From: Secundilactobacillus kimchicus JCM 15530
GTDB lineage: Bacteria; Bacillota; Bacilli; Lactobacillales; Lactobacillaceae
DNA: 64,000 bases
Direction: 5' to 3'
NCBI RefSeq assembly: GCF_001433995.1
Contig: NZ_AZCX01000001.1
Span: forward strand, 372,001-436,000
Position numbers and translations under genes: made by a program. Positions within the stretch are counted from its first letter, which is position 1. The number at the start of each line of letters is the position of its first letter. Below, in pieces: positions 57,452-64,000 of the stretch. The notes under the pieces were generated by a model. It had not been told where the DNA came from. It worked only from the letters and a program-made list of their open reading frames with translations, and ran no database searches.

Positions 57452-58414
57452 TTACGCGTCAGTAACCGTCCCAGCGAAACTAGGCATAAAGTACTGACTA
57501 ATCGTTTCAATTTCAACGTTTTGACCCGGTTGAGGCGCCGCGACATACTGGTTATTGCCAATGTAAATCGCATCATGATACGTGGCCCCTTCTTGACCCC
57601 AGAATAAAATATCACCGGGTTGGGCATCTGCTACACTGTGCGTTGAAACCGCCTTTTCCTGGGACACTGTGCTGTGTGCCAGACTAATACCAGCCGCATG
57701 ACCATATACGTACGACACCAACCCAGAACAGTCCATGCCACTTAATGAAGCGCCACCCCAAACGTACGGAATCTTCATCCCCGCTAATTTGACAGCCAAT
57801 CCTGTCACTGATGTGGTCGAGTTCGCAATGACCGCATCGGCCTTTGTCGTCGTTGCCTTCTTCTTAGAAACCGACTGCTTCAGAGGCTTAACGACCGATC
57901 CCGACTTCTGAGCCGCGCTAGCGCGAACCGCTAATTTTTCACCCGGGTAAATGAAATTAGACTTTAATCCATTCCAGCTCTTCAACTGATTAATGGTTAC
58001 ACCATATTTAGAACTGATCCGAGAAAGCGAGTCGCCCGATCGGACCGTATATGTAGTGCCTGTTGTGCGGGTTGTTGCGGTCGTCGCTTTAACCGACCGA
58101 ACGACCTGCTTAGTAGTACCCGCTGCCTTAGCCTTAGCTGACTTGGTGCCAAGCGGCGCCGTCGTTCGCCCTGGTAAAACGATCTTTTGACCAGCAAAGA
58201 TCTGGTCAACGCCCGCTTTAGTTTGCTTAATATGATTTAACTGTTCCAATGTTTTGATGGTCACACCATACTTGTTGGCGATTCCCCACATTGAATCTCC
58301 AGATTTAACGGTTATGGTCTTGGCACTGGCAGATAGACCACCTGCTACCATTAGACCGGCTGCCCCGATAAGCCCAGCCGTTGCAGCTTTAACAGCTGTC
58401 TGTCGTTTTCCCAA
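57452..58414 (-). CDS. Exported LysM-NlpC/P60 peptidoglycan hydrolase (TTG start)
   Basis: 320-residue wall hydrolase: signal peptide (about 1-31, AAGLMVAGGLSASA), LysM 1 (ITVKSGDSMWGIANKYGVT), LysM 2 (YTVRSGDSLSRISSKYGVT) and an NlpC/P60 domain with catalytic Cys in MDCSGLVSYVYG and His in ATYHDAIYIG. It should cleave the D-Glu-diamino-acid bond in stem peptides during growth or separation. A frame opens at 58579, but only the TTG at 58414 has a ribosome site (AAGGAG) and gives a proper signal peptide. The upstream residues lie in a terminator and AT-rich leader. Confidence 0.9.
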   Translation of the reverse strand: MGKRQTAVKAATAGLIGAAGLMVAGGLSASAKTITVKSGDSMWGIANKYGVTIKTLEQLNHIKQTKAGVDQIFAGQKIVLPGRTTAPLGTKSAKAKAAGTTKQVVRSVKATTATTRTTGTTYTVRSGDSLSRISSKYGVTINQLKSWNGLKSNFIYPGEKLAVRASAAQKSGSVVKPLKQSVSKKKATTTKADAVIANSTTSVTGLAVKLAGMKIPYVWGGASLSGMDCSGLVSYVYGHAAGISLAHSTVSQEKAVSTHSVADAQPGDILFWGQEGATYHDAIYIGNNQYVAAPQPGQNVEIETISQYFMPSFAGTVTDA

Positions 58415-58554
58415 ATCAAACCACTCCTTCGTATGTCTCCATATCAAATATCGCGTTTTAAAATGATACAAGTTCATATTAACACATTTTCCAAAAATGG
58501 CCCCACAAAACGTTAAGTTTTTCTTGCGAATACAGCAAAAAACTAAAAATAACC

Positions 58555-58587
58555 ATAAAAAAAAGTAGCCGGTTTTCACCGACTACT
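58555..58587 (-). terminator. Terminator of the muropeptide-recycling operon
   Basis: On the minus strand AGTAGTCGGTGAAAACCGGCTACT followed by eight T. The stem includes the stop codon of the beta-lactamase-like gene and separates it from the exported NlpC gene. Confidence 0.9.
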
Positions 58588-59326
58588 GCGTCATTTCTTG
58601 CCAAATTAACTGACCAATTGATTGGATAAACGCTAATGCTTGCTGACGTCCCGGGATTCCAGCAGTTAGGACGGCCACGGTTACCACCTGACTGTCCGTC
58701 TCAAACCAGGCAACATCGTGATCGATGTTTGGACCTTCACCCGTTTTATTGGCAACCTTAACGGCCGTATCAAGCTCATCGAAGACCCCGGGCAACTTAT
58801 AGCGAAATTGTTGGTTAAAAAACCATGATCGGACAACTGGATAACGCGTCAATAAATGAACTAACAGCCGTTCTGACTCCGCCGCACTAACCGTGTTCTC
58901 GCGGCCCTGTTTTAAGGCGCCCACATCCATTAACCGGCGATTCAAACCCGTTTCATGATAACCATTCCGGCCTAGCCAGTCGTTAATGGTCGCCATTCCA
59001 AGGTAGTCAATCAATAGATTTGCTGCGGTATTATCCGAAACACTAATCATTAACGCTGCAACATCCCGCAATGAATAGGTACCTGACCCCAATTCTTGTA
59101 AGACACCCGCACCACCCACGACTCCCTGGGACGCTAACCGAATCGGTTTCGCCATGTCTTCTTCTTGATCCATGAGCGTTGCCAATATAGCAAGCTTAAT
59201 AATCGAAGCTGCTGGGAATAATTGACGAGCACGGTGAGCAAAAATGGTTTGATCAGCGACTTTGACAATTAATCCCACATGATCACTCATCGGGGCCACT
59301 AAGGTTTCAAACGCCGTTGTCTTCAT
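58583..59326 (-). CDS. Class A beta-lactamase-like serine hydrolase, no signal peptide
   Basis: 247-residue penicillin-recognising-fold enzyme with all class A motifs: S41-IIK44 (nucleophile and Lys), S97DN99, E125TGLN129 (ExxLN, the deacylating Glu) and K194TG196. There is no signal peptide or membrane helix, so it should stay in the cytoplasm. It overlaps the NlpC/P60 gene by 4 bases and follows the L-Ala-D/L-Glu epimerase gene, which suggests a role on muropeptides (for example a D-Ala-releasing carboxypeptidase) rather than antibiotic resistance. The function is inferred from context. Confidence 0.85.
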   Translation of the reverse strand: MKTTAFETLVAPMSDHVGLIVKVADQTIFAHRARQLFPAASIIKLAILATLMDQEEDMAKPIRLASQGVVGGAGVLQELGSGTYSLRDVAALMISVSDNTAANLLIDYLGMATINDWLGRNGYHETGLNRRLMDVGALKQGRENTVSAAESERLLVHLLTRYPVVRSWFFNQQFRYKLPGVFDELDTAVKVANKTGEGPNIDHDVAWFETDSQVVTVAVLTAGIPGRQQALAFIQSIGQLIWQEMTQ

Positions 59327-60213
59327 GCCCGCCAGTACCTCCGAGCGCCGACGTATTCTGGTGCATACCGTAGCTCAGTCAAGGTCGCAATGTCCACTTG
59401 TTTCCCTAATGTCCGGGATTGAATCATCTGACCATGACCAATATACATGCCAACGTGGTGAATCCGACCGTGCCCATGTTCGTATGCAAAAAATAGTAGA
59501 TCCCCGGGCTGGAGATTTTCAGCCGCAACGGGTTGACCATTATAGTACTGATCATCCGCATCACGTGGTAATTCGAATCCCAAAACGCGGTGAAGGGTGT
59601 AAACAAAGCCAGAGCAATCAAAACCGTACGCGCTAATTCCGCCCCACAAATAGCGAAGGCCCAAGAATTGACGCCCCATTGCTACCAACCGTTCATTCAT
59701 TGCTAGATCAGCAAACGGCATGGCAATGCTTTCTTTATCGATATAGCCCGGCCCAAGCGGCGTGGCCACTTTAACCGCGTCCGCCGTTATATCAAGCTGG
59801 CTAAATCGCGTTCCCATTGAGACCGTTAGTAACGGATCGTGATGGTCATCAAATAACGTTGTTAATGGGCTCGCCACCGTGACCTGAGTTGTCGTCACAG
59901 CATCTGGTGCAATTTCGGTCAAAAGCGCCGTTTTAACCCAGCCAGGATAACCGCGAACATCTGAGTCATCAGCCTGCGACGGCACCACAATTTCAGACCA
60001 GTCGCCAGCCTCCGAAAGCACCAACACCTCATCATTAAACAGGACTTGCGTGGCAATCCGGTTGCCATCTCCCAATGTAATGCTGTCCGCATCAGACATA
60101 TCCGCAACCCATTGTTGCACATCGCCCTTCAAAGCGGGCGCATCTATTTCTCGGGGCGCCGTCGAACTAGTCCAGACCGTTGCGACTGGCACCACCACCC
60201 GTTTCAATTTCAT
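59323..60213 (-). CDS. NlpC/P60 dipeptidyl peptidase, YkfC-like
   Basis: 296-residue cysteine peptidase: two SH3b-like regions (about 1-85 and 95-165, WVKTALLTEI) and a C-terminal NlpC/P60 domain with catalytic Cys200 (FDCSGFVYTL), His253 (HHVGMYIG) and PGDLLFF. Like Bacillus YkfC it lacks a signal peptide. The YkfC group frees L-Ala-D-Glu from wall peptides in the cytoplasm, which is the substrate of the epimerase encoded 8 bases upstream. GTGAGGTGAG precedes the ATG. Confidence 0.88.
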   Translation of the reverse strand: MKLKRVVVPVATVWTSSTAPREIDAPALKGDVQQWVADMSDADSITLGDGNRIATQVLFNDEVLVLSEAGDWSEIVVPSQADDSDVRGYPGWVKTALLTEIAPDAVTTTQVTVASPLTTLFDDHHDPLLTVSMGTRFSQLDITADAVKVATPLGPGYIDKESIAMPFADLAMNERLVAMGRQFLGLRYLWGGISAYGFDCSGFVYTLHRVLGFELPRDADDQYYNGQPVAAENLQPGDLLFFAYEHGHGRIHHVGMYIGHGQMIQSRTLGKQVDIATLTELRYAPEYVGARRYWRA

Positions 60214-60221
60214 TTAATCAC

Positions 60222-61316
60222 TCACCTCACTTGATTTGGTTCATATTTAAGACCCAGCCCAGCGGCATCAGGAACCGTAATGACGTTGCCTTCGTTCACG
60301 ATTCCACCTTGAGCTGGCTGTGATTGAAACATCATCGCGGCATCCAAATCGACGTAGGCGACATTTTGCTTAGCCGCTACTAAATGGGCTGCTGCTGTCA
60401 CTGACACTTGAGATTCAATCATCGATCCCACCATGCACGGAGTGCCAAAGGATTCTGCAATTGTGTTAATCGTTAAAGCATTGTCTAATCCGCCAGCCTT
60501 CATTAGTTTAAGGTTGATAATATCACATCCGCCCATATTTAGCAGGCGCAACGCATCCGCTGGTGAAAAGATGCTCTCGTCCGCCATAATTGGGACCTCG
60601 GTGTGTTGTGTCACGTACGCCATTCCAGAGAAATCAGCGGCTGGCACCGGTTGTTCAACCAACTCGAGATTAAGACCTGCGTCAGTCATTTCATTGATTG
60701 CCCGCGCAGCAGCTTTTGGATGCCATCCTTGGTTGGCATCCAGTCGTAATCCGATCGCTGGTCCAACTGCCGATCGAATAGCCGCTACGTGTTGCCGGTC
60801 GGCCTCTGGCGCCAACGTGCCCACCTTAATTTTCAACGTTTTGAACCCCTGCTTTACTAATCGTGCCGCGTGATTAACCATCTCCGCTTCAGAGCCAACG
60901 CTGATGGTATAGTCGGTTTCAAAAGCCGATCGAAACCCACCCAAATAACGCGCAACGGAGACACCATAGTGCTTGGCTAATAAGTCATTAACCGCAATAT
61001 TAACGCCTGCCTTGGGACTATGATTGCCCACAATGGCCGTTTCAATCGCGCGTTTTACCCGCTCTGGGGCTGTCAATGGCAACCCCACAATCTTCGGGGC
61101 AATTGCGGTTTCAATGGCCGTCTTGATGCTTCCCTGAGTATCACCGGTAATTGCAGCCGTCGGTGCAGCCTCACCTAACCCCGTCATACCATCGGAATCA
61201 GTCAACACGATGAGGGTCGTTTCAGCGGTTGTCACCGTGCGCAATGCAGTTTTGAACGGTTCCTTCAAAGGAACGGATACGGGGAACAGAGCAACGGATT
61301 TAATCGTCAGGGTCAC
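60222..61316 (-). CDS. L-Ala-D/L-Glu dipeptide epimerase
   Basis: 364-residue enolase-superfamily enzyme of the muconate lactonising type (YkfB). The catalytic lysine motif is TLKIKVG (KxK, about 160), metal ligands are in RLDANQGW, VEQP and ADESIFS, and the second lysine is in NLKLMKAGG. It converts L-Ala-D-Glu from peptidoglycan to L-Ala-L-Glu so ordinary peptidases can finish the job. GTG at 61316 follows AGAAGAG; the ATG at 61334 lacks a site. First gene of a three-gene recycling operon. Confidence 0.88.
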   Translation of the reverse strand: MTLTIKSVALFPVSVPLKEPFKTALRTVTTAETTLIVLTDSDGMTGLGEAAPTAAITGDTQGSIKTAIETAIAPKIVGLPLTAPERVKRAIETAIVGNHSPKAGVNIAVNDLLAKHYGVSVARYLGGFRSAFETDYTISVGSEAEMVNHAARLVKQGFKTLKIKVGTLAPEADRQHVAAIRSAVGPAIGLRLDANQGWHPKAAARAINEMTDAGLNLELVEQPVPAADFSGMAYVTQHTEVPIMADESIFSPADALRLLNMGGCDIINLKLMKAGGLDNALTINTIAESFGTPCMVGSMIESQVSVTAAAHLVAAKQNVAYVDLDAAMMFQSQPAQGGIVNEGNVITVPDAAGLGLKYEPNQVR

Positions 61317-61370
61317 AATCATCTCTTCTTTCATTTTGATGAAATTTTTATGAAAATCGTCTCATTTATT

Positions 61371-61423
61371 GTAACTCAAAAGACCAGCCACAACAATACG
61401 CTGTGACTGGCCTTTTGAGTTAC
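61371..61423 (-). terminator. Terminator of argR
   Basis: On the minus strand a 22-bp stem with two G-U pairs starts at the argR stop codon region and ends in TTTTGAGTTAC. The inner AAAAGGCCAGTCACA / TGTGGCTGGTCTTTT part with its T run is the active terminator. Confidence 0.85.
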
Positions 61424-61890
61424 TCCTCTGACAAATCAGGATTTGCATACCTTGCAAAAACTGCCAAAACGGATTCTGCATCAGGCTCGCTTGGACTGAT
61501 TAAGACAATGGTATCATGCCCAGCTAGCGTGCCAGCGACCGCATCTAAATCTAAGTCGTCAATGATGGCCGCCAACATGTTAGCGTAGCTCGGTAGCGTG
61601 TGCACGATCGTAATAAATCTCACGCGCTGATAGTTCGTCACCGTTTCGCTAATGGAGCGATACAGGCGCTGCCGCTCGTTTTGGTTGCCTGCTTTATAAA
61701 CCATGTAGTGTGACGCCCCAGTAGCGTCTTGTTGCTTCACAATTTGCATCTCCCGAATATCGCGCGAAATAGTGGCTTGCGTGGCCACAATTCCAGCGCT
61801 TTTTAACCGGGCCATTAGTTCCTCTTGCGTCGCAATTGAATACTGGTTAATGAGTTGTTCAATTTTGGATTGCCGAACCTCTTTTTTCAT
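61420..61890 (-). CDS. argR: Arginine repressor/activator ArgR
   Basis: 156-residue arginine-sensing regulator. The N-terminal winged helix has ATQEELMARLKSAGIVATQATISRDIREM (about 16-45, with the family's SRDI), and the C-terminal oligomerisation/arginine-binding domain contains GTLAGHDTIVLISPSE with the ligand Asp region DDLDLDAVAGT. ATG at 61890 follows GTGAGG; the GTG at 61902 is inside the site. It probably controls argGH, the arc genes and perhaps the ABC transporter. It is downstream of the arcR-like gene. Confidence 0.94.
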   Translation of the reverse strand: MKKEVRQSKIEQLINQYSIATQEELMARLKSAGIVATQATISRDIREMQIVKQQDATGASHYMVYKAGNQNERQRLYRSISETVTNYQRVRFITIVHTLPSYANMLAAIIDDLDLDAVAGTLAGHDTIVLISPSEPDAESVLAVFARYANPDLSEE

Positions 61891-61918
61891 GGTGAGCCTC
61901 ACTTTTCCAACCCGTTCG

Positions 61919-62620
61919 CTATTGACCGTGCGACATCAAATCATTGGGATCAAACGTGAACATCTTCCGGTGGTACATAATTTTACCTGATTCGACCAGT
62001 TGAGCCACAATCTGACCAGCCGTTTCCCTAGTCGTCCCGCTAACACGAGCAAGCTCAATTAGCGTGATTGGGTACGGAATTTTAATGTTGGTCGCCACTG
62101 AAGGGACCCCCAATTCCTTGCCAAATATAATCAGCGCTTGCATCACTCTATTGCGGGCACTCGACGTCACCATTCGTTGAAGTCGATCCTCAGTCACGTC
62201 AATAATTTGTCCCAGTAGCTTCACCAATCGCGCCATCGTTGCTGGGCAATGACGAACCGCGTCCTCATAGTCGCTCATCGGAAATGAGGCAATAATCAAG
62301 GGCGTCATTGCAACCGCATCGTACGGGTACTCCGTCGCTGAAAAAATCCCTCGGTAGGGAAATCCCTTGTCCGGCTTGACATAATTGAGGTAGCCAAAAT
62401 CGCCCGTTTCGTCGATCCGCTCAAGGCGAACCACCCCATCAATCACATAGTAAAACCGGTCGCGGCCGTCTCCTTGACTAAACAGGACTTGGCCTTTCGG
62501 ATACTTTCGGACTTGCAAATCAGCCGTTAAATTAGCAAAAGCCGAATCGCTTAGCGTATTGAAGTCATCTTTTTCGCGCAGCAGTGGTCTGTATTGATCA
62601 AGCGTTCCTCTGTTGTCCAT
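61919..62620 (-). CDS. Crp/Fnr family regulator, ArcR-like
   Basis: 233-residue transcription factor: an N-terminal cyclic-nucleotide-binding fold (LQVRKYPKGQVLFSQGDGRDRFYYVIDGVVRLE, about 37-70) and a C-terminal Crp-type helix-turn-helix (ITLIELARVSGTTRETAGQIVAQL, about 183-206). No Fnr-type cysteine cluster is present, so it is not an oxygen sensor of that kind. The position next to arcC and argR identifies it as the ArcR-type activator of the arginine deiminase operon. Confidence 0.88.
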   Translation of the reverse strand: MDNRGTLDQYRPLLREKDDFNTLSDSAFANLTADLQVRKYPKGQVLFSQGDGRDRFYYVIDGVVRLERIDETGDFGYLNYVKPDKGFPYRGIFSATEYPYDAVAMTPLIIASFPMSDYEDAVRHCPATMARLVKLLGQIIDVTEDRLQRMVTSSARNRVMQALIIFGKELGVPSVATNIKIPYPITLIELARVSGTTRETAGQIVAQLVESGKIMYHRKMFTFDPNDLMSHGQ

Positions 62621-62672
62621 CAGTCAATGCGAACCCTTCCGTATCATTCTGGTTCCATTATACCGTGTTCAA

Positions 62673-63638
62673 CTAGGACTGGCTAGGGACGGGAGACATT
62701 GAAATAATCGTGCCGTCGCCCTTTTCGAGAAACCGGCCAACATTTTCTAATGACGTAATGACCGCCGAACTTTCTGGCCGACTCTCCACAAAGTCAATGG
62801 CGGCTTGAACCTTCGGCAACATGCTACCTTTAGCAAACTGATCTTGCGCAATATAGTCCTTCATTTCAGCCACCGAAACAGCCTCTAACCGTTTTTGATC
62901 GGGCTGATTGAAATTCACAAAAACATTGTCGACCGCAGTCAGAATAATTAAGAGGTCAGCCCCCACCAACTCGGCTAATTTTTCGGATGCAAAGTCCTTA
63001 TCAATCACGGCTTCACGCCCAACAAAACGCTGGTTATCGCGAACAACTGGGACGCCACCGCCGCCCACCGTAATTGGGACAATGCCAGCACTCACCAACT
63101 GGTTAACAACACTTGCTTCAATCACACCAATTGGTCGCGGAGAAGGAACCACACGCCGATAGCCACGGCCTGCGTCTTCAACAAAAGTTTGCTCGGGATG
63201 AGCTGCTTTGATAAGGTCACACTCAGCCTTTGAATAAAACGGCCCAATGGGTTTTGTTGGGGTTATAAACGCCGGATCATCAGGGCTCACTTCAACCTGA
63301 GTCACAATTGTGGCCACCTCTGTCTCTAACCCATTTTCGACCAAAACCTCGTTCATTGCGTTTTGGAGCCAGTAGCCAATGCTCCCTTGAGTCATGGCAA
63401 CTGCTGTATCCAGTGGCATTGGCGGGTTCTTTTCAGTGCTGCCGGCCGCTTGCTGGAGTAGTAAGTTCCCGACTTGCGGTCCGTTTCCGTGAGAGATAAT
63501 GAGTTGATCGCCTTGTTTGATAAAGGCAACGAGGGTTTTCGCGGTGTCTCGTAGTGCTTGCTGTTGTGCTTGGGCACTCGCATCTTTGGATAGAATCGCG
63601 TTGCCGCCAAGTGCGACCACAATCTTTCGGTTTGCCAT
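62673..63638 (-). CDS. arcC: Carbamate kinase
   Basis: Makes ATP from carbamoyl phosphate and ADP, the energy-yielding last step of the arginine deiminase pathway. The 321-residue amino-acid-kinase-fold protein starts [16 protein letters not shown], has [14 protein letters not shown] (about 43-56) and [10 protein letters not shown] near the middle, with the [27 protein letters not shown] nucleotide region. ATG at 63638 follows AGGAAGG; a longer frame to 63692 runs through the upstream hairpin. Confidence 0.95.
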
Positions 63639-63655
63639 CCTAATCACCTTCCTAT

Positions 63656-63689
63656 TAAAAACGGGCACATAGTCATCACTATCTGCCCG
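63656..63689 (-). terminator. Hairpin between arcB and arcC
   Basis: On the minus strand CGGGCA...TGCCCG with inner AGT/ACT pairs is followed by TTTTTAAT, just before the arcC ribosome site. It looks like an intercistronic partial terminator or RNA stabiliser. Confidence 0.65.
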
Positions 63690-63698
63690 CAATTGTTG

Positions 63699-64000
63699 TT
63701 AAACCCGTGGAATGAAGAGGTTTCCAAGGGTTGCAGCCATCATCGCTTTGATTGAATGCATCCGGTTTTCAGCTTCTTCAAACTGACGTGCATACTTACT
63801 CCGGAAAACTTCATCCGTAACTTCCATTTCGGTTATGCCATATTTTTCTTCAATTTCTTTCCCATATTCAGTTGTTGTATCGTGGAACGCTGGTAGACAA
63901 TGCATGAAAATTAACTGATCATCAGGCGTACCCGTCTTTTTCATGGCGGCCATATTCACCTGGTAAGGCGTTAATAGCTTAACGCGTTCCTCCCAGTTAC
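63699..64000 (-). CDS. arcB: Ornithine carbamoyltransferase, C-terminal part
   Basis: The gene continues beyond the right edge; about 100 C-terminal residues are seen. HCLPAFHD is the carbamoyltransferase motif with the active-site cysteine, preceded by [19 protein letters not shown] and followed by [28 protein letters not shown]. The catabolic form phosphorolyses citrulline to ornithine and carbamoyl phosphate for ArcC, and the order with arcC supports this over the anabolic ArgF. The N-terminal STRT site is not in the window. Confidence 0.94.

Follow-up and report, generated by a model that had tools for sequence, protein, structure and literature searches.

The window, a stretch of 64,000 nucleotides from Secundilactobacillus kimchicus JCM 15530, carries a compact unit of three genes on its minus strand. 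The first gene (60222..61316, −) encodes an L-Ala-D/L-Glu epimerase of the YkfB type, whose closest solved relative was the B. subtilis-type L-Ala-D/L-Glu epimerase 1jpm (E 6e-98). Its open reading frame extends from 61334 to 60222 and offers alternative ATG starts at 61322 and 61334; GTG at 61316, the start to which the coordinates of the sequence-only reading point, is the likelier one, since AAGAAGAG lies just upstream of it and homologues align from residue 6–11 onwards. After a spacing of 8 bases follows a gene for a YkfC-type γ-D-Glu-L-diamino acid endopeptidase (59323..60213, −) composed of SH3 and NlpC/P60 domains (PF00877, PF23795). Here the closest solved relative was B. cereus YkfC (3h41, E 2.5e-53), and the YxW, DCSG and HH residues were retained. 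A 4-base ATGA overlap joins this frame to the third gene (58583..59326, −), which encodes a class-A-like serine peptidase of 247 amino acids (PF13354, E 3.3e-44). An intrinsic terminator with a 10-pair stem and T8 is located directly 3′ of the class-A-like gene (58564..58587, −; −15.6 kcal/mol, z −4.35), while a 24-pair hairpin without a T-run lies between an upstream argR-like gene and the epimerase gene (61370..61424, −; −40.3 kcal/mol, z −11.4). On account of these two elements the three genes appear to be transcribed together, as a unit which the strong upstream hairpin would set apart from the arc/arg genes. The operon proposed in the sequence-only reading, including the 4-base overlap, was thus confirmed as a set of minus-strand reading frames between two hairpins, and on inspection none of the three proteins had an evident signal peptide. 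The genes further upstream (61420–63959, −) resemble an arc operon: the end of a putative ornithine carbamoyltransferase gene and a carbamate kinase-like frame were assigned by resemblance, and the Crp-family and ArgR-type regulators were checked. The next gene downstream (57452–58579, −) encodes a LysM and NlpC/P60 protein; its listed GTG start overlaps the terminator, and an internal start near 58415 appeared likelier.

The class-A-like protein combines S41-x-x-K44 (catalytic serine and lysine; codons at 59195..59206, −), S97-D98-N99, E125-x-x-L-N129 and K194-T-G with a glutamate, E197, after the last motif (codons at 58736..58747, −) and a lysine at position 177. S41 and K44 were invariant in all three of our alignments (A1, A2, A3). 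The AlphaFold model (pLDDT 95.9) adopts the class A fold, and PF13354 was the only domain found in the protein, with no match to the S66 families PF02016/PF17676. When the model was compared with solved structures by VIA-align, the best matches were 4hes from Veillonella parvula (Z 33.2) and 4ewf from Sphaerobacter thermophilus (Z 31.9), both of which have KTGS and lack K177; we know of no function assigned to either. LRA-5, 6v4w and PBP-A (2j7v, Z 30.0) came next, differing among themselves by no more than one Z unit, and TEM and PSE-4 scored near 29.

The protein thus shares with the class A β-lactamases (TEM, SHV, PSE-4) the fold and the three motifs SxxK, SDN and KTG, and the window copy even has a glutamate, E125, at the place of the general base Glu166. 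An ordinary class A β-lactamase nevertheless appeared extremely improbable. The N-terminus (MKTTAFETLVAPMSDHVGL) showed no export signal of the kind found in these enzymes, the gene is part of a recycling operon, and with the curated NCBIfam model for class A the score was 65.9 bits, well short of the cut-off at 200. Moreover, at least 11 different residues (E, Q, K, A, S, G, D, N, T, R, H) occupied the Glu166 position across the epimerase-linked members, so that the ExxLN motif is present in the window copy as had been claimed but its glutamate is not conserved in the family. By contrast, SxxK, SDN, Q172, K177 and K[TS]G[E/D] were kept in 58 epimerase-linked members (K[TS]G[E/D] in 58/58); one truncated copy lacked the N-terminus. 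E197 may therefore be regarded as part of a subfamily signature. In a quick tree computed with the signature columns removed, in which many inner forks were weak, the epimerase-linked members fell into one clade of 62 rows (SH-aLRT 91). Unlinked Bacillales paralogues mostly had KTG[SWMT] and lacked K177, while nearly all lactobacillus paralogues that are secreted lipoproteins or membrane-anchored carried KTGE and K177.

Several paralogues were observed along the way. A separate clade of extracellular class-A-like lactobacillus proteins (L197–L209), nearly all with KTGE and K177, comprises lipoproteins (e.g., L199, L200, L207) and membrane-anchored forms that have zinc-ribbon motifs at the N-terminus (e.g., L197, L206, L209). 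Second paralogues in genus g37 (L070:5929–6690, L132:5909–6679, L210, L211) show SxxD for SxxK and KLG[RQ] for KTGE; they always stand beside an RpiR/MurR-type regulator and are possibly ligand-binding pseudoenzymes in MurNAc regulation. In genus g5 (L071:5906–6736, L075:5312–6112), paralogues have lost both the catalytic serine (G for S) and the lysine of KTG ([YL]TGE) but keep the remaining fold, and no epimerase is encoded nearby.

The best-characterized protein with which these features can be compared is PBP-A of Thermosynechococcus, a class-A-fold enzyme with measured DD-carboxypeptidase and DD-endopeptidase activity (PMC11189452). The sequence-only reading had held that removal of D-amino acids was not established for class-A-like proteins; this was wrong, because PBP-A is a DD-peptidase of that very fold and D-Ala trimming is hence already known for it (PMC11189452). 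PBP-A (TLL2115; 2j7v, 2j8y) resembled the window protein in its overall structure (Z 30.0, rmsd 2.3 over 239 residues), in the absence of a conserved Glu166 counterpart (Asn or Leu near that place) and in an acidic residue after KTG (KTGD). The family profile likewise matched PBP-A at E 4.6e-33, compared with 8e-20 or weaker for true class A β-lactamases. The two proteins differ in that they share only about 24% identity and PBP-A is not known from a recycling operon. Furthermore, Glu96 of PBP-A, which selects D-iGln, aligns with G72 of the window protein, and K177 corresponds to Leu in PBP-A.

The gene context was surveyed in 201 Lactobacillaceae genomes, the family to which the window belongs. 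A contig scan with the single class-A-like protein as query found no relative, while a contig search with alignment A2 yielded 64 loci. A class-A-like gene stood beside the epimerase gene in 27 of the 201 genomes, where such a pairing within 5 kb would be expected to arise by chance at about 0.6% per genome. YkfC was encoded between the two in all eight genomes of Secundilactobacillus, the window's genus, and in all six carriers of g14 (Lentilactobacillus). The other 13 carriers, from other genera, combined epimerase and class-A-like gene without YkfC. In these other genera the neighbours were largely recycling genes, namely those for MurQ, MupG, a NagK-like kinase, an RpiR/MurR regulator and PTS components, as well as PBP4B-like PF00144, VanY-like, S11-like and PepV-like genes. 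The muropeptide-related role originally suggested is thereby strengthened, as the context ties the class-A-like gene to recycling well beyond this genome, in lactobacilli as well as in Bacillales. At two loci (L054:1033–2145, L055:6732–7818) the epimerase gene is in pieces next to an intact class-A-like gene, reflecting either recent decay or assembly errors. At L047, L072, L073 and L080 two families of penicillin-recognising fold, PF00144 (PBP4B-like) and PF13354, are encoded close together in MurQ operons; at L080 only PF00144 accompanies the epimerase.

The occurrence in MurQ/MupG operons could also be explained if the protein were a MurNAc-L-Ala amidase, like the AmiE-type enzymes of the wider superfamily. 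We consider this very improbable: most of these operons already encode the PBP4B-like PF00144 protein, which is the better candidate for such a step, and in many carriers MurNAc genes are missing from the neighbourhood.

Of the components of a ykf-type operon, the unit in the window has the YkfB epimerase and YkfC but lacks the S66 enzyme YkfA, and neither S66 (PF02016) nor VanY was matched anywhere in the S. kimchicus genome. The search for an S66 carboxypeptidase elsewhere in the genome, suggested by the sequence-only reading, thus came out in line with its idea that the class-A-like enzyme acts in place of an LD-carboxypeptidase, converting tetra- to tripeptides. Among lactobacilli with a full-length YkfC, S66 was indeed found in only 1 of 14 genomes with the class-A-like gene versus 10 of 15 without it (Fisher p 0.002), a pattern confounded by kinship because it stems from five genera only. 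Over all 201 Lactobacillaceae the trend was weak (5/27 with versus 64/174 without the gene, p 0.08). As a rule, the proposed replacement failed in Bacillales, where epimerase-adjacent relatives were present in many genomes, within ykf-like clusters containing OppA, S66 and a DppD-like ATPase. Five loci (L116, L117, L121, L123, L216) showed the order OppA, S66, epimerase, YkfC, DppD-like ATPase and, in last position, the class-A-like gene. Sporolactobacillus mangiferae (L161) encodes S66, epimerase, YkfC and the class-A-like protein in one operon, and L113 and L162 likewise have S66 and class-A-like gene in the same cluster. A more distant lineage (L220, L223, L225) combines DppD, DppF, S66, class-A-like and NlpC/P60 genes, the last three of which overlap or abut, so that S66 and the class-A-like gene are translationally coupled there. 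Since both genes occur together in several Bacillales operons, the class-A-like gene cannot be a simple stand-in for S66, and a general replacement was ruled out; in several lineages the protein accompanies the usual LD-carboxypeptidase and does not displace it. We are also aware of no SxxK enzyme with LD-carboxypeptidase activity. Tripeptide products of such an activity were sought with PBP-A and not seen (PMC11189452). YkfC, moreover, cleaves tri-, tetra- and pentapeptides, so that an LD-carboxypeptidase is not strictly needed for the route (PMC2954226). Although the absence of S66 and VanY from this genome speaks in its favour, an LD-carboxypeptidase is therefore unlikely. Compared with B. 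subtilis ykfABCD, which shares the epimerase and YkfC and whose order is similar to that of the Bacillales relatives with their additional S66 and ABC ATPase genes, the window genome lacks S66, no ABC ATPase gene adjoins the unit, and the published B. subtilis operon has no class-A-like gene. VanY/VanXY and S66 carboxypeptidases would share stem-peptide substrates with the class-A-like protein, but their folds are unrelated. Relatives with KTGS or KTGT (L128, L129, L222, L226, L235) have no epimerase gene beside them and lie close to genes for OppA, a C26 peptidase or YkfC; they perhaps belong to another peptide-recycling branch.

L-Ala-D/L-Glu epimerase requires a free α-carboxylate. A deamidase acting on L-Ala-D-isoglutamine might therefore be needed wherever peptidoglycan is amidated, and MurT was present in all Lactobacillaceae carriers tested. 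However, MurT was absent from most Bacillales carriers of epimerase, YkfC and class-A-like gene (G329, G393, G383, G402, G253, G454, G296), a distribution that contradicts this function and makes it highly improbable. Two candidate markers of amidated substrates were also discarded. The site of B. cereus YkfC Ser257, in the aligned PRD-A position, was Ala in nearly every YkfC compared and Val in three, and is uninformative because Ala occurs alike in carriers with and without MurT; the place of PBP-A Glu96 is Gly in the class-A-like family.

Taken together, the class-A-like protein most likely trims recycled wall peptides rather than destroying antibiotics. From the lack of a signal peptide and from the gene context we infer a cytoplasmic location and membership of the recycling pathway, respectively, while the DD-carboxypeptidase reaction is a guess by homology with PBP-A. 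The reading we favour, at somewhat less than an even chance, is that of a PBP-A-like carboxypeptidase which acts in the cytoplasm on imported stem peptides. Stem peptides freed in wall turnover would be imported into the cell, and the enzyme would take off the D-residue at their C-terminus, which would be D-Ala5 or, in this organism, D-Lac. In this reaction S41 would be acylated, K44 and S97 would relay protons, and K194-T-G-E197 together with K177 would shape the substrate site. YkfC would next cut γ-D-Glu from L-Lys/DAP, and the epimerase would convert L-Ala-D-Glu to L-Ala-L-Glu for ordinary dipeptidases. Where present, S66 would take D-Ala4, and the two carboxypeptidases would therefore be complementary. 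Only one clear D-Ala ligase is encoded in this genome, of the form YDFEHKF, and F at that place is a mark of D-Ala-D-Lac ligases; on this basis D-Lac may be the leaving group here.

An alternative assignment places the enzyme one step later, on small products, as an L-Ala-L-Glu dipeptidase or as a peptidase splitting the L-Lys/DAP-D-Ala(-D-Ala) left by YkfC, with E197 holding the free amino group. No partner of the gene is more constant than the epimerase, which suits a step next to the epimerase equally well, and invariant acidic and basic residues lie in or near the KTG strand. The acceptance of tetra- and pentapeptides by YkfC (PMC2954226) would supply such products. The chief doubt about the PBP-A-like carboxypeptidase bears on the same choice: UDP-MurNAc-pentapeptide would be open to attack by a DD-carboxypeptidase that is free in the cytoplasm, so that the enzyme would need to discriminate, whereas a requirement for a free amine, imposed by E197, would spare the UDP-precursors and would thus favour action on small products. 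In addition, the operons at L049–L055 also have a VanY-like gene and may already cover the DD step there, PBP-A stands outside recycling operons, and its specificity residue Glu96 is Gly here. Nonetheless, we rate a small-product enzyme as rather unlikely, as PepV-like or M20 dipeptidase genes occur in some of the same operons, many clusters lack YkfC, and PBP-A with its KTGD is a DD-carboxypeptidase. The same signature is also found outside the cell: extracellular relatives with K177 and KTGE fit better with a substrate that occurs there too, a stem peptide, than with an internal dipeptide. More doubtful than the PBP-A-like carboxypeptidase, yet conceivable, is a broader proposition, that these proteins form an undescribed cytoplasmic class-A-fold peptidase subfamily which is a regular component of stem-peptide recycling in Bacilli and has a specificity new to the fold, read out by the K177/E197 pair: small stem peptides in free form or products of YkfC, and not wall D-Ala-D-Ala.

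A literature search, outside whose reach most subscription journals lay, returned no description of class-A-like proteins in operons of the ykf or the MurNAc kind and no measured activity for any member of the family. If the proposed role is true, class-A-fold enzymes would have a cytoplasmic housekeeping function, handling the very peptides that β-lactams mimic, and a gap in Gram-positive wall recycling would be filled. The finding would also bear on the origin of class A β-lactamases. Their closest relative outside resistance has so far been seen in PBP-A, described as confined to cyanobacteria; a group that is widespread in Firmicutes and does not conserve Glu166 would provide a second reference point. 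Finally, annotations as "class A beta-lactamase-related" in food-culture and probiotic lactobacilli need not then mean resistance genes.
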